The position numbers and the translations under genes are program-made. 64,000 nt of DNA, taken from the NCBI RefSeq assembly GCF_900110505.1, contig NZ_FODZ01000002.1, positions 300,113 to 364,112 of the forward strand. Reading direction: 5' to 3'. Of this stretch, positions 26,311-50,381 are shown piece after piece. Under the pieces are notes generated by a model. The model did no database searches, was not told where the DNA came from, and saw only the letters and a list, made by a program, of their open reading frames with translations. The DNA is from Luteibacter sp. UNC138MFCol5.1 (GTDB lineage: Bacteria > Pseudomonadota > Gammaproteobacteria > Xanthomonadales > Rhodanobacteraceae). Every line of letters starts with the position of its first letter. Position 1 is the stretch's first letter.

Positions 26311-27510
<1,200 letters not shown>

Positions 27511-27539
27511 CCAACCCGGGCATCGGGGCCTCGGCGCCC

Positions 27540-45956: not shown

Positions 45957-45984
45957 TTGAACAAACGTGACCGTGGGCTATGCT
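45957..45984 (+). promoter_or_regulatory. Sigma-70-like promoter of the quorum-sensing operon
   Basis: TTGAAC (45957-45962), a 16-bp spacer and TATGCT (45979-45984) lie in the 64-bp gap between tcdA and the cytochrome gene. The predicted start site near 45991 leaves a short leader before ATG 46012 and makes the earlier GTG at 45967 unusable. Confidence 0.5.
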
Positions 45985-46011
45985 GGCGTCCTCGTATGCG
46001 ATGGACCACCA

Positions 46012-46401
46012 ATGCGCCCGCTGCTACTCGTCATCCTCGGCCTCGTGACAGGCGCGATGGGGGCGACCTTCGCCCTGTCCGCCCTTCACCAGGGCACCCC
46101 TTTCCATCGGGGCGTGATGGCCGTGATGCAGCACCACATGGGCGTACTGCGCGCCAACGTGCGGGCGAACCAGTGCGATGCCAAGGCCTCCGTGCTCCGG
46201 TTCGGGCGGATGCGCTCCGCGGCCACGGACGTGCGCGACGCCTTCCCGGACATGGACGCGGCGTTCTATGCGGCGGCCGACCATCTCGGCACGGCGCTGG
46301 ACGCCGCCGTGGCGGCGGCACCCGCGAACTGCGAGGCGCTGACGGCCACGCTCGCGCCGGTCGGCGAGGCGTGCCAGTCCTGTCACCGGCAGTACCGATG
46401 A
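46012..46401 (+). CDS. Small cytochrome c'-like heme protein
   Basis: A 129-residue exported protein with an N-terminal hydrophobic segment (residues 3-24), then a mostly helical body. The C-terminal heme-attachment motif is Cys-121-Gln-Ser-Cys-124-His-125, four residues from the end, which is the placement seen in cytochrome c' four-helix bundles. Such proteins bind NO or act in redox sensing. It is 16 bp upstream of the CqsS-type kinase gene on the same strand and probably shares its promoter, which raises the possibility of redox input into the kinase; that is inference. Confidence 0.75.
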   Translation: MRPLLLVILGLVTGAMGATFALSALHQGTPFHRGVMAVMQHHMGVLRANVRANQCDAKASVLRFGRMRSAATDVRDAFPDMDAAFYAAADHLGTALDAAVAAAPANCEALTATLAPVGEACQSCHRQYR

Positions 46402-46417
46402 GCGGCGGTGCCCAGCC

Positions 46418-47827
46418 GTGAGCGACGACCGAACGACGGACGCCTTGCCGGGCACCGCCGCGACGCCGGACACCACCCGGCCCCGGCAGTTCTTCCGGCT
46501 GCAGTTGTGGCTGCTGATGCGCGCGCTCGAGCGCTTCGAAACCACGATGTTCCTGCGGACGCGGTACTCGCAGCCCAAGATGGTGGCCATCGGCGTCGTC
46601 GGCAGCTTCTGCCTGGCCGTGTACTACCCCATCTGGGCGTACCTCTTCCCGCAGCCGTACGAAAACCTGCCCATGCGGCTGATCTGCAGCGCCACGTTCA
46701 TCCCGCTGGCCCTGCTGCCCTGGTGGCCGCGGCGGCTGCGGACGCACCTGCCCACCTACTGGTACTTCGCGATGACCATCGCGATGCCCTTCTTCGTCGG
46801 TTACATGACCCTGCGCAACGCGACGCCGGCCTGGCTGATGACGCACCTGGCGTGCGTGATGCTGCTGATGATGCTGTTCGACATCGCCAGCTTCCTCGTC
46901 GTCTTCACCATCGGCAGCGCGCTGGCCGCGCTGGTCTTCGCGCTGTCGCCGGAGGCCCACCTGCACGCGCGGACGATGCTCGAATACATCCCGCTGCTGA
47001 TGTTCGGCATGGTCGGCGGCGCGACGTGCACGGTCTCGGCCAACATGGCGGAACAGTCGCGCATCGACGCCCTGACGGCCGCATCCAACAACATCGCCCA
47101 CGAGCTGCGCACGCCGCTGGGGTCCCTGCGCATCGCCGCCCGCGCCGTGGCCCGGTTCATGCCCGACCTGATCCGCAGCCACCGGCTCGCGGAATCCGAG
47201 GGGCTGCCGGTGCCGGAAGTCCGCGCGCAGAACCTGCACGCACTGGAGCGCAGCATCGGGGTCATGGAGCGCGAGGTCACCTACGCGAACACGATCATCG
47301 ACATGCTGCTGCTGGCGGCCCGGCCGATCGGCGAGGTGCCGCTCAGCCCCCTCGCGGCCCGCGAACTGGTGGACCAGGCGCTGCGACGCTTCCCCTACGG
47401 CTCCCGCGCGGAGCGCGAGCGCATCACCCTCTCGGTGGCGGGCGACTTCCGGCTGCTCGGGGAGGAGGCCCTGGTGGTCCACGTCCTCTTCAATCTGCTG
47501 CGGAATGCACTTTTTCATACCGATCGGGCCGGCAAGGGCGACATCCGGGTCTTCGTCGAGCCGGGCGAACTGGTCAACCGGATACGGGTCCACGACACCG
47601 GCCCGGGCATCCCTCCGGACGTTCTTCCCCGCATTTTCAACCGGTTTTACTCCCACGCCAGCGACAGCGCGGGGACGGGCAACGTGACCGGCCTCGGCAT
47701 AGGACTCGCTTTTTGTCGCGAGGCGATGGAGCATATGGGCGGAGGCATCTCGTGCCGTACCAATCTGGGGGAATTCACGGAGTTCACCCTCTCCTTTCCG
47801 CATCCGGAGACCGGGGACCGGCAGTGA
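46418..47827 (+). CDS. CqsS/LqsS-type membrane sensor histidine kinase (alpha-hydroxyketone receptor)
   Basis: A 469-residue kinase starting at GTG 46418. About six membrane helices lie between residues 55 and 205, with FPQPYENLPMRL and LPTYWYFAMTIAMPFF, which closely follow the ligand-binding region of Vibrio CqsS. The H box is NNIAHELRTPLGSL (His-228), the N box LFNLLRNALFH (Asn-363), then DTGPGIPP and GLGIGLAF. No C-terminal receiver is present, unlike hybrid CqsS, so phosphate should pass to the adjacent regulator, whose ATG shares a base with this stop. The predicted signal is an alpha-hydroxyketone made by the synthase at 49119. Confidence 0.88.
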   Translation: MSDDRTTDALPGTAATPDTTRPRQFFRLQLWLLMRALERFETTMFLRTRYSQPKMVAIGVVGSFCLAVYYPIWAYLFPQPYENLPMRLICSATFIPLALLPWWPRRLRTHLPTYWYFAMTIAMPFFVGYMTLRNATPAWLMTHLACVMLLMMLFDIASFLVVFTIGSALAALVFALSPEAHLHARTMLEYIPLLMFGMVGGATCTVSANMAEQSRIDALTAASNNIAHELRTPLGSLRIAARAVARFMPDLIRSHRLAESEGLPVPEVRAQNLHALERSIGVMEREVTYANTIIDMLLLAARPIGEVPLSPLAARELVDQALRRFPYGSRAERERITLSVAGDFRLLGEEALVVHVLFNLLRNALFHTDRAGKGDIRVFVEPGELVNRIRVHDTGPGIPPDVLPRIFNRFYSHASDSAGTGNVTGLGIGLAFCREAMEHMGGGISCRTNLGEFTEFTLSFPHPETGDRQ

Positions 47828-48864
47828 TGACGTTGAACTCGCAGGGCGACATCCAGCCCTTCCATTTCCCGACCACCACCGTGCTGGTCGACGACCACGA
47901 GGAATACCTCGACGTGGTCCCGTTGCTGCTCGACCCGATGATGCGGGTGCGGACCTTCAGCTCGCCGCGCAACGCGCTGGCGACGCTGGGCAACAACGGC
48001 AGCCGGCCCGTTCCCGGCGGCGGCTGGCTCTACCGCTGGAAGGACCGCCCGTCCGAGACCCAGGAACTGGTCGCGCTGGACATCGATTCCATCCACCGCG
48101 TGGTCTACGATCCGGAGCGCTTCGCCGAGATCTCCGTCGTGGTGGTCGATCAGGCGATGCCCGAAATGGACGGCATCAGCTTCTGCAAGCGCCTGCCCAA
48201 CCCGCACATCGGCAAGATCCTCCTGACCGGCCGCGCGGACGACGCCACCGCCATCGACGCCTTCAATTCGGGCGTCATCGACCGCTTCATCCGCAAGAAC
48301 GATCCCGAGGCGATCTCCAAGCTGCAGACGGCCATCACGGAACTGCAGCGCCGCTACTTCGAGCGCGCCAGCGCCTTCGTCGCCGAAACGCTGGCCCTCG
48401 GCAATTTCCGCTTCCTGCGCGATCCCGCGTTCCGCGAGGTCCTGCAGTCGGTGACCGCCACCTTCCAGCCCGTCGAGTGTTACGTGCACTGCAATCCGAC
48501 CGGCCTGCTGCTGGTGGACGCCTGGGGCATCGGGCGCTTCCTCCTAGTCCAGACGGACGAGGACCTGCGCACCCACTATGAAATTGCGGCAGATCTCGGG
48601 GCGCCTCCGGCCGTCCTCGAGGCGCTTCGCCAGGGTGCGGCCCTGCCCTGGTTCAACTCCCGCGACGGCTTCTACCACCGGGGCGTCCGCGATCCCGAGT
48701 CGCAGCTGCACCCCGCGACTGCCGTCTCCGGCGAACAGTGGTACTACTACGCCCTCATCGACGATGTGGAGCGTTTCCGGCTGCAACACGTGAAGTCGTA
48801 CCGCACGTGGCTGCGCGAACAGGATCTCAGCCTGGCCGCGGACAGCCGTTCACACCGCATCTAG
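47827..48864 (+). CDS. Atypical response regulator of the AHK circuit (LqsR-like position)
   Basis: A 345-residue protein. The receiver is complete: Asp-22/Asp-23, phospho-acceptor Asp-108 in VVVVDQAMPEMDG, Thr-134 and Lys-157 (FIRKND). Between the first and third strands there is an unusual insertion of about 40 residues (GGGWLYRWKDRPSETQELV). The C-terminal 185 residues show no helix-turn-helix, GGDEF, EAL or kinase motif. They contain AWGIGRFLLVQTDED and EQWYYYALIDDVERF and may be a ligand- or protein-binding output. The start overlaps the kinase stop (TGATG), so the pair is co-translated. Confidence 0.82.
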   Translation: MTLNSQGDIQPFHFPTTTVLVDDHEEYLDVVPLLLDPMMRVRTFSSPRNALATLGNNGSRPVPGGGWLYRWKDRPSETQELVALDIDSIHRVVYDPERFAEISVVVVDQAMPEMDGISFCKRLPNPHIGKILLTGRADDATAIDAFNSGVIDRFIRKNDPEAISKLQTAITELQRRYFERASAFVAETLALGNFRFLRDPAFREVLQSVTATFQPVECYVHCNPTGLLLVDAWGIGRFLLVQTDEDLRTHYEIAADLGAPPAVLEALRQGAALPWFNSRDGFYHRGVRDPESQLHPATAVSGEQWYYYALIDDVERFRLQHVKSYRTWLREQDLSLAADSRSHRI

Positions 48865-49118
48865 GGCCTCTATCCCAGGCTCGCCACTCTCATGCGCCGG
48901 CGGGATCGGCGCAGCGGCGTCCTGTCGCCCGTGAAATCCAACCGGTGCGGCCCCTGGCCGTGCCCTCTCTGTCTCAAAGCCATGGGGTGCGGCAGGCCCT
49001 CGCGGGCGGTCGTTCGCGTACCTCTGTGACGATTTCGCGCCTGGCAGGGCGAGGCCGGCGTGCGTGCGCCGTCCGTCGGGCGGCGGCGAAGTTCGCCCGC
49101 TGACAGAGAGAGAAGACC

Positions 49119-50381
49119 ATGGAAAACGTTTCCATCCTCCACCCGATCGTCAAGGCGCCGGAGCTTCCGGCATTCGTCGCACGCAGGGTCGATCGATTTC
49201 ACAATGAACGGGTGGCCATCGACTGGGGTGGCCGTCACATTTTGCGCGGCCGGCGTCCGTCCGACGGCGACCTGATGCTCCAAAGCAATGATTACCTCGC
49301 CATCGCCGGCCATCCGGACATCGTCGAGGCCCAGCGCGACGCGCTCGCGACGGGTGGCCTCGGCATGATGATGTCCGCCCTCTTCCAGCAGGATGCCGAT
49401 CAGCCCCTGCATCGGGCCGAGGCCGAGCTCGCCCGTGCCGTGGGCAGCGAGGACGGCATCCTCGCCCAGTCGGGCTTCGCCGCGAACGTCGGGCTGATCC
49501 AGTCGCTGGCCGGGGAGCGTATTCCGGTCTACATCGACATGCTCGCGCACGCCTCGCTATGGGAAGGCATACGCAGCGCGGGAGCGAAAGCGGTGCCGGT
49601 GCTGCACAACGACGTCGCGCACCTGGAAAGGCAGGTGCTGCGCAACGGCGCCGGCGTGATCGTCGTCGACGCCGTGTACAGCACGAACGGCAGCCTGGCG
49701 CCGCTCACGGACATCGCCGCCGTGGCGGAAGCGCACGGATGCGTGCTGGTCGTCGACGAATCCCATTCGCTCGGCACGCATGGCGCGCGCGGCGAAGGCC
49801 TCGTCGCCAGCCTCGGCCTCAACGACCGCGTGCACTTCATCACGGCGAGCCTCGCGAAGGCGTATTGCTCGCGCGCCGGTTTCATCGCGTGCACGACGCG
49901 CTTCAAGGATTACTTCGGTTGCGAGGCGTTGCCGGCGATCTTCAGTTCGTCGTTACTCCCGCATGAGCTCGCCGGTCTCTCGGCGGGGCACCGCGTGATC
50001 CAGACGGAGGGCTGGCGCAGGCAGCGGCTGCGCGCCGTCACGCGACGCGTGCGCCACGAGCTGACCGAGCTCGGCTATCCCATCGGCGACGGCACGGAGC
50101 AGATCATCGCGTTCGAGGCGGGCCAGGAAATCCTCACCGGCCACGTGCGCGACGTGATGGAGCGGCATGGGATCTTCGGCTCCGTGTTCAGCGCGCCGGC
50201 GACGACGGTCAACCGTTCGCTGCTCCGCCTCACGCTGAATGCGGGCATGAGCGACGGCGACGTCGAGCGGCTCCTGCACGCGTGCCGCGTCGCGCGCGAC
50301 GACATGGCGCTGCCGACGTGGAGCGCGGCGCGCAGGGAGCAGCGCGAACAGGGCAAGGCGGCAGCCGCGGAAGTCGCGTGA
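49119..50381 (+). CDS. CqsA/LqsA-family alpha-hydroxyketone autoinducer synthase
   Basis: A 420-residue PLP enzyme of the alpha-oxoamine synthase family. Compared with KBL and BioF it has the autoinducer-synthase features: MLQSNDYLAIAGHP (53-66), LAQSGFAANVGLIQ, YIDMLAHASLWEG (138-150), VVDAVYST and VVDESHSLGTHG with Asp-213. TASLAKAYCSRAGF carries Lys-247, and AIFSSSLLPHE follows; these run almost in register with Vibrio CqsA. It should join an acyl-CoA to an amino acid or SAM to give an aminoketone/hydroxyketone signal. GAGAGAGAAG precedes ATG 49119. It lies 254 bp after the regulator, in a gap with no recognised feature, so it may have its own promoter. Confidence 0.9.
   Translation: MENVSILHPIVKAPELPAFVARRVDRFHNERVAIDWGGRHILRGRRPSDGDLMLQSNDYLAIAGHPDIVEAQRDALATGGLGMMMSALFQQDADQPLHRAEAELARAVGSEDGILAQSGFAANVGLIQSLAGERIPVYIDMLAHASLWEGIRSAGAKAVPVLHNDVAHLERQVLRNGAGVIVVDAVYSTNGSLAPLTDIAAVAEAHGCVLVVDESHSLGTHGARGEGLVASLGLNDRVHFITASLAKAYCSRAGFIACTTRFKDYFGCEALPAIFSSSLLPHELAGLSAGHRVIQTEGWRRQRLRAVTRRVRHELTELGYPIGDGTEQIIAFEAGQEILTGHVRDVMERHGIFGSVFSAPATTVNRSLLRLTLNAGMSDGDVERLLHACRVARDDMALPTWSAARREQREQGKAAAAEVA

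Follow-up and report, generated by a model that had tools for sequence, protein, structure and literature searches.

The alpha-hydroxyketone (AHK) signals have well-studied circuits in Vibrio, where CqsS is a hybrid kinase feeding LuxU and LuxO and CqsA releases methylthioadenosine as a by-product, and in Legionella, where the corresponding system is Lqs. CqsA uses S-adenosylmethionine (SAM) and decanoyl-CoA as substrates (PMC3376566); among 6,937 proteobacterial genomes, LqsR orthologs are reported in 310, of which 87 are gammaproteobacterial, and lqs clusters occur in Alpha-, Beta- and Gammaproteobacteria alike (PMC10653808), and a jqs system is described in Janthinobacterium (PMC3566124). 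Here we analyze a 64,000-nt stretch of Luteibacter sp. UNC138MFCol5.1 (NZ_FODZ01000002.1; "the window"), in which an initial annotation, made from the sequence letters, had marked positions 45957-50381 as an AHK circuit. The genus is described as including endohyphal and plant-associated members. Three genes carry the comparison:

46418..47827, + strand: membrane-bound sensor histidine kinase of the CqsS/LqsS type, 469 aa; six membrane helices predicted, receiver domain absent, H-box residue H228
47827..48864, + strand: LqsR-family response regulator; 345 aa, receiver residues D22/D23/D108/T134/K157 and an LqsR-type output domain
49119..50381, + strand: AHK autoinducer synthase of the LqsA/CqsA family, 420 aa; pyridoxal phosphate (PLP) Lys247, Asp213

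All three genes are intact; the start of the regulator overlaps the stop codon of the kinase (TGATG), and the synthase starts 254 bases after the regulator on the same strand. This gene set is very probably an lqs-type AHK quorum-sensing circuit. It belongs to the known lqs kind with a layout of its own, and its new parts are a leader RNA that matches no Rfam family and a relative that keeps the receptor only. In Luteibacter, the circuit makes a fixed trait of a signal class that is otherwise familiar mainly from Vibrio and Legionella.

Identity of the Synthase

AHK synthases were called with NF005526, an NCBI curated equivalog with a cut-off of 428 bits, against which the window synthase scores 532.7 bits. 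Its match to V. cholerae CqsA has an E value of 1.3e-98, while the top BioF chain reaches only 1.9e-39, and PLP-binding Lys247 and Asp213, which the initial annotation had noted as in place in a PLP synthase matching the CqsA motifs, are invariant across 14 aligned sequences. Another reading would make it a primary-metabolism enzyme of the BioF/KBL/ALAS type that adjoins a two-component system by chance; the PLP superfamily is common to both, and the bioF model still gives the synthase 233.9 bits (cut-off 426.45). However, the genome already has its own KBL (668.3 bits against TIGR01822, cut-off 493) and two BioF-type paralogs (as trimmed, under the bioF cut-off), and in a tree of 90 AHK synthases with these three as outgroup the synthase branch stands apart from them with support of 100/100. 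The synthase is, moreover, adjoined by the kinase and an LqsR-type regulator in 70 of 80 named loci, and it clears the AHK equivalog cut-off; we therefore regard a primary-metabolism role as extremely improbable and reject it on the tree split and on the KBL and BioF-type enzymes that the genome has besides.

Within the tree, the window synthase pairs with that of L. jiangsuensis inside a Rhodanobacteraceae/Lysobacteraceae-labelled group (96/89), away from Vibrio CqsA; the program flags long branches, mainly those of the outgroups and of some divergent rows, whose exact placement is therefore unsure. Of at least 559 relatives the 80 best were kept, and the closest named synthases among these come from Luteibacter, with a top identity of 88% (L. 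jiangsuensis). The KBL (glycine C-acetyltransferase) gene lies in the same window, at about 26443-27528. By analogy with CqsA, the PLP enzyme would condense an acyl-CoA with SAM to yield an aminoketone or hydroxyketone.

Sensor Kinase and Ligand Pocket

The kinase, with a listed start at GTG, contains the FPQPYENL and LPTYWYFAMTIAMPFF regions and terminates past its ATPase domain; the hybrid-kinase receiver domain of Vibrio CqsS is not present. These features bear out the proposal of a CqsS-like, non-hybrid membrane kinase, and the non-hybrid kinase combined with a stand-alone LqsR-type regulator places the layout nearer lqs than cqs, as had been suggested. A hybrid cqs layout is ruled out by the 469-aa length and the end after the ATPase domain. 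The predicted structure (predicted local distance difference test, pLDDT, 82) has membrane helices at 52-76, 84-98, 107-134, 137-153, 156-176 and from 184 onwards, the sixth continuing into the phosphoacceptor helix. The top structural matches of the model are cytoplasmic kinase domains, e.g., ZraS and HK853, and a sequence search of solved structures with the sensor part gave no match (sole listed hit, E 0.81).

To compare the sensor domains, we used an alignment of 33 rows that includes two CqsS sequences from Vibrio and a Legionella-like LqsS; row L068 was dropped from the kinase alignment. The Luteibacter sensor domain aligns with these three at 26-33% identity over 171 columns, and the ligand-contact positions can be identified in it. 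Those positions were transferred via a Vibrio sequence with an offset of +4, judged consistent because position 166 then falls on V. harveyi Phe175; residue roles follow the review PMC3376566. W73, P78, Q79, R87, N134, G166 and F196 are invariant in the 33 rows. V. cholerae W104 corresponds to W139 here; 32 of 33 rows have Trp at this position, the Legionella-like row alone having Ser. V. cholerae F162 corresponds to F196, Phe throughout (33/33). The S107 position is Thr in seven rows (Luteibacter, Pinirhizobacter and the genome G142) and Ser in the remaining 26, while F160 is replaced by Leu and F166 by Gly in the Luteibacter kinase. Position 170 of V. cholerae CqsS, reported to determine ligand tail length (PMC3376566), is Cys there and is C204 here, with Cys in the same seven rows. 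By this analogy, the Luteibacter receptor should take amino or hydroxy head groups, without restriction to C8 tails. A search of the genome with the kinase returned no second match spanning the sensor helices; therefore, no LqsT-like kinase is seen.

Response Regulator and Proposed Signal Path

The regulator matches LqsR (PDB 6sy9) over residues 9-334 with an E value of 1.6e-50 and is 34% identical to L. pneumophila LqsR over nearly its full length, in line with the stand-alone response regulator of the initial annotation. Its predicted structure (mean pLDDT 86) has LqsR as the top structural match by far, with template modelling (TM) scores of 0.74/0.82. The receiver residues are invariant in 31 of 31 sequences, and the sole other match to the regulator in its own genome covers part of the receiver only. 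The output domain of LqsR is described as similar in fold to diguanylate cyclases, with no activity demonstrated for it (PMC10653808).

We propose that the six-helix kinase would bind the signal in the membrane, shifting its kinase/phosphatase balance, and that the LqsR-type regulator would receive a phosphoryl group at Asp108, its output domain then acting as part of a putative density response. One result weighs against the circuit reading: the HisKA domain of the kinase is below the Pfam cut-off (23.8 vs 26.9). The analysis demonstrates which genes are present and to which families they belong, the residues of active site and ligand pocket, the fixed site, purifying selection and the covariation of the RNA; chemistry, phosphotransfer, density response and the effect of the RNA are inferred.

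A Probable Structured Leader RNA Precedes the Synthase

The initial annotation passed over a structured RNA, at 49036-49098, in the 254-base gap before the synthase:

49036..49062, + strand: leader RNA hairpin P1; arms 49036-49045 / 49053-49062, loop AGGGCGA 49046-49052
49066..49086, + strand: leader RNA hairpin P2; arms 49066-49074 / 49078-49086, sequence variable, covarying
49093..49098, + strand: pseudoknot 3' strand UCGCCC; complement of P1 loop GGGCGA 49047-49052
49105..49114, + strand: AGAGAGAGAA, probable synthase ribosome-binding site; partly complementary to a pyrimidine stretch upstream of P1 (possible P0)

Aligning the gaps of the Luteibacter loci revealed a conserved block directly before the synthase; in the window, 6 bases separate the end of the pseudoknot from the purine-rich ribosome-binding site, which is followed by AUG. 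The seed of the RNA model consisted of 13 Luteibacter leaders. L018, which is the window again, was omitted, as were L004, L013, L015, L017, L020, L002, L003 and L132, which differ in loop or arm length. The eight genomes of the latter and two further genomes were recovered via the covariance model, and 10 of 23 genomes thus lie outside the seed; the P2 pairs were chosen by scanning an alignment of the 13 seed sequences, a choice of which the other 10 genomes are independent.

In a plain MAFFT alignment of the 13 sequences, not fitted to the structure, 95.5% of cells pair and two-sided changes occur at 9 of 23 pairs, with 24 further pair types; not one of these values is attained in 500 shuffles, and slid partners pair in 34-50%. 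The covariance model, with 150 first-look candidates scored per genome, finds the leader as the top match in each of the 23 Luteibacter genomes (33.0 to 85.1 bits), and the top match elsewhere in these genomes among the candidates scored has 31.9 bits. When all 23 leaders are aligned by fitting to the model, an alignment that leans towards it, 93.7% of cells pair and 15 of 24 pairs have both partners changed (0/500 shuffles; slid partners 30-54%). The pseudoknot is largely invariant and hence uninformative. Where it varies, it mostly follows: one pair is G-C in 18, G-U in 3 and A-U in 2 leaders, and another has a single G-U; the outermost pair fails in 8 of 21. A DNA-binding dyad as explanation of P1 is rejected, the paired positions changing on both sides, and coding sequence as the source of conservation is rejected by the length of P2, which varies by numbers not divisible by three. 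No Rfam family matches the leader; at E ≤10 there is only a chance CRISPR hit on the opposite strand (E 7.1).

Several observations speak against the leader RNA. With 22 leaders (one truncated) aligned automatically, RNAalifold gave only one small helix, single-sequence folding is only mildly better than shuffles (mean z -1.56, 23 leaders), and at least four leaders (L158, L165, L174 and L175) have a different minimum-energy fold. In a search of the wider family, run with stricter filters that lost one true leader (G012), 10 non-Luteibacter genomes match the model at 31.3-35.6 bits, several of them exceeding the weakest Luteibacter leaders (33.0-35.2), and the model alone does not separate them. 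Six of these matches were checked, and all lie within open frames of at least 80 codons, which are common in GC-rich DNA; of the remainder, two loci are cut by contig ends and two are without locus sequence. We treat the non-Luteibacter matches as chance. In the leader of the sister genus Pinirhizobacter, hairpins are seen by eye but are missed by the model (0.5 bits), and the best match in G142 (7.9 bits) lies on the strand opposite to the synthase; other AHK synthases therefore do without the leader RNA. Across the family search, Pinirhizobacter and G142, there is no convincing copy of the leader outside Luteibacter. As a predicted structure, the leader is strong, and it is covariation that makes the case. 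In genus g25, which includes Tahibacter records, loci L021, L022, L024-L027 and L030 have a different conserved-looking leader with a GAGAGG end before the synthase.

Possible Functions of the Leader RNA

A regulatory leader of some sort, probably acting in cis, is the likely role of this RNA; its transcription as a leader is taken from its position. As proposed, the two-hairpin pseudoknotted RNA at the start of the synthase mRNA, near the ribosome-binding site, would most likely set translation or mRNA stability. A consensus scan of the gap found no sigma-70-like promoter and no intrinsic terminator, and a transcription terminator was accordingly dropped as a candidate.

A pyrimidine stretch directly before P1 (CCUCUCUC in many species) can pair with GAGAGAG of the ribosome-binding site; this pairing (P0), if formed, would enclose the entire element and mask the start. 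It beats about 93% of control windows in 17 genomes out of 23. On the other side, the complementarity is weak in the remaining 6 of 23 and is without covariation beyond chance (own vs species-swapped pairs, 565 of 5000 permutations); translational control is thus a reasonable guess only.

These features bear on whether the leader is a metabolite riboswitch, e.g., for SAM or methylthioadenosine, that opens and closes the synthase ribosome-binding site. Two hairpins with a pseudoknot, one strong copy per genome solely at the synthase among scored candidates, the 6-base distance to the ribosome-binding site and the upstream pyrimidine pairing are all consistent with it; yet nothing in Rfam corresponds beyond the chance hit, unpaired bases outside the pseudoknot loop are rarely conserved, and covariation lends no support to P0. 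We consider a riboswitch unlikely. A protein- or small-RNA-binding structure, a thermosensor or an mRNA-processing/stability element that uncouples the synthase from kinase-regulator expression is a tentative alternative, and it fits a structure kept while the sequence mostly varies and a gap in which neither promoter nor terminator was seen. There is a precedent in L. pneumophila, where CsrA is reported to control lqsR at the ribosome-binding site (PMC5338858); however, a GGA motif is not common to all leaders, which therefore are not plainly CsrA targets.

Our own working proposal, which we put forward with less than even confidence, is that Luteibacter may gate its hydroxyketone signal via this new pseudoknotted leader, which would sense a metabolite or factor tied to synthesis and switch translation of the synthase. 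If true, RNA gating would be a second, intracellular input to AHK quorum sensing beside the membrane kinase, and the leader would be a new testable control layer for an autoinducer synthase.

Distribution and Gene Order

An AHK synthase over the NF005526 cut-off is present in 23 of 23 Luteibacter genomes, one with an in-frame stop (L047 5995-7098, a Luteibacter metagenome assembly; true loss or sequencing error). In the family, it is found in 34 of 233 genomes (35 at E 1e-80) and 5 of 26 genera; the order sample gave 8 of 151 genomes and the class sample 8 of 369 (9 at E 1e-80). The regulator and kinase are convergent on the synthase in 50 of the 80 named loci. Fourteen are collinear like the window (Luteibacter, Pinirhizobacter, Tahibacter and Lysobacteraceae-labelled), five, all Oxalobacteraceae, are divergent, and one has another collinear order; for the other ten, one or both partners were not found, partly owing to contig ends.

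Some loci depart from the three-gene cassette. Two Luteibacter genomes carry orphan second AHK synthases over the curated cut-off (L124 5965-7242 in G017 and L125 5995-7206 in G007), and the 13-kb stretches around them gave no such kinase. In the Lysobacteraceae-labelled L053 (2360-5798), the kinase is flanked by two LqsR-type regulators, followed by the synthase. Pseudomonas lini (L118 6001-7170) carries an AHK synthase, within 6 kb of which neither such a kinase nor an LqsR-type regulator was found, and the Legionella-like G273 (L033/L039) has two AHK-type synthases, one under the curated cut-off, and a regulator 80% identical to LqsR.

Chromosomal Site and History

The region first taken as the circuit includes a separate gene:

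46012..46401, + strand: cytochrome c'-like haem protein, C-terminal CQSCHRQYR; neighbour gene, PF01322 33.7 bits, cut-off 26.5 (on 46018-46401)

Positions 45957-46401 thus carry a gene that is probably not part of the circuit; it adjoins tcdA in many family genomes, whether or not the cassette is present. Sixteen of 19 cassette-bearing loci of the group have tcdA upstream and 15 have the cytochrome c'-like gene there, and Mpo1-like, pirin, alpha/beta-hydrolase and cold-shock genes lie downstream in most; L053 has none of these usual neighbours. We also inspected the tcdA neighbourhood in 19 genomes of 13 genera without an AHK synthase at E 1e-80. The site is closed, with the cytochrome directly beside the Mpo1-like gene, in nine of them; one has the cytochrome beside pirin, one has tcdA by the Mpo1-like gene with no cytochrome, and one (G120) keeps kinase and regulator with the synthase absent. 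In the other seven, the far side of the site was not found, for four of these not within 10 kb either. G142 carries the cassette, and G141, under the same genus label, shows a closed site.

The ratio of nonsynonymous to synonymous substitution rates (dN/dS) in seven Luteibacter comparisons is 0.10-0.14 for the kinase, 0.04-0.08 for the regulator and 0.08-0.13 for the synthase; against Pinirhizobacter the values are 0.32, 0.08 and 0.15. These numbers are rough because dS is high, and they indicate purifying selection. The patchy occurrence in 5 of 26 genera, and the pair G142 and G141, would fit a recently arrived mobile island carried as a passenger. Against it stand the presence in every Luteibacter genome, the flanks common to several genera, the low dN/dS, the closed sites and the Rhodanobacteraceae/Lysobacteraceae-labelled tree group (96/89), and we hold a recent island to be improbable. 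Because the site is closed in AHK-lacking relatives, G141 included, the evidence favours an old cassette with repeated loss; gain of the cassette by recombination at the site may also have occurred.

A Receptor-Only Relative

G120, of the same family, has a kinase (52%) and a regulator (68%) at the usual site (L194 2904-5218), an Mpo1-like match that starts 7 bases past the regulator stop, and no AHK-synthase match in its genome at E 1e-80. Its kinase retains the phosphoacceptor His and Trp139. At other positions it departs from the alignment: E82, Glu in 32 of 33 rows, is Ser; F196, Phe in 33 of 33, is Leu; T142 is Ala; and, on reading the sequence, His takes the place of R87, which all 33 rows have as Arg. 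In this one genome, the pattern is as expected if the AHK pocket had been released on synthase loss, with the receptor taking another input. Relatives with a closed site, with the full cassette and with the receptor only offer a natural series for studying gain, loss and rewiring of such circuits.

Comparison with Known Systems

The initial annotation had known of no description of the circuit in this lineage. In the literature searched, no main text, that of PMC10653808 included, mentions Luteibacter in connection with "hydroxyketone" or "lqs", although tables in the supplement of PMC10653808, outside this search, may list it; Luteibacter is absent from the main text of that paper altogether. 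The novelty is smaller than the initial annotation supposed, lqs clusters being reported in three proteobacterial classes and jqs in Janthinobacterium.

With Vibrio CqsA/CqsS, the Luteibacter system shares the synthase family, the active site, pocket positions W104 and F162 and the Cys at 170, whereas the Vibrio CqsS proteins, at 690 and 681 aa, far exceed the Luteibacter kinase in length. Ralstonia PhcX is an LqsR-family regulator without LqsA, i.e., a regulator outliving its synthase, as in G120 (PMC10653808); PhcX is described as adjoining phc genes, while the G120 regulator still adjoins its kinase. The JqsA/JqsS/JqsR set of Janthinobacterium HH01 is likewise an environmental, lqs-like three-gene AHK cluster, in which deletion of jqsA is reported to reduce violacein (PMC3566124). 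Janthinobacterium itself is outside the loci; in its Oxalobacteraceae relatives (the five divergent loci), the synthase is oriented away from kinase and regulator, and the synthases form a separate, neighbouring tree branch. Known riboswitches and leader RNAs in Rfam also place hairpins and a pseudoknot beside a ribosome-binding site; no family among them matches the Luteibacter leader.

L. pneumophila Lqs has the same three families, LqsA, LqsS and LqsR, with a non-hybrid kinase and a nearly full-length LqsR match. Its genes have hdeD between them (PMC3376566), while the Luteibacter order is collinear kinase-regulator-synthase, with kinase and regulator overlapping and without hdeD there. LqsS has Ser at the head-group position where the Luteibacter kinase keeps Trp (W139), and the L. 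pneumophila system includes an LqsT-like kinase that has no counterpart in the Luteibacter genome search. Finally, unlike in L. pneumophila Lqs, the Luteibacter synthase is preceded by a leader RNA.

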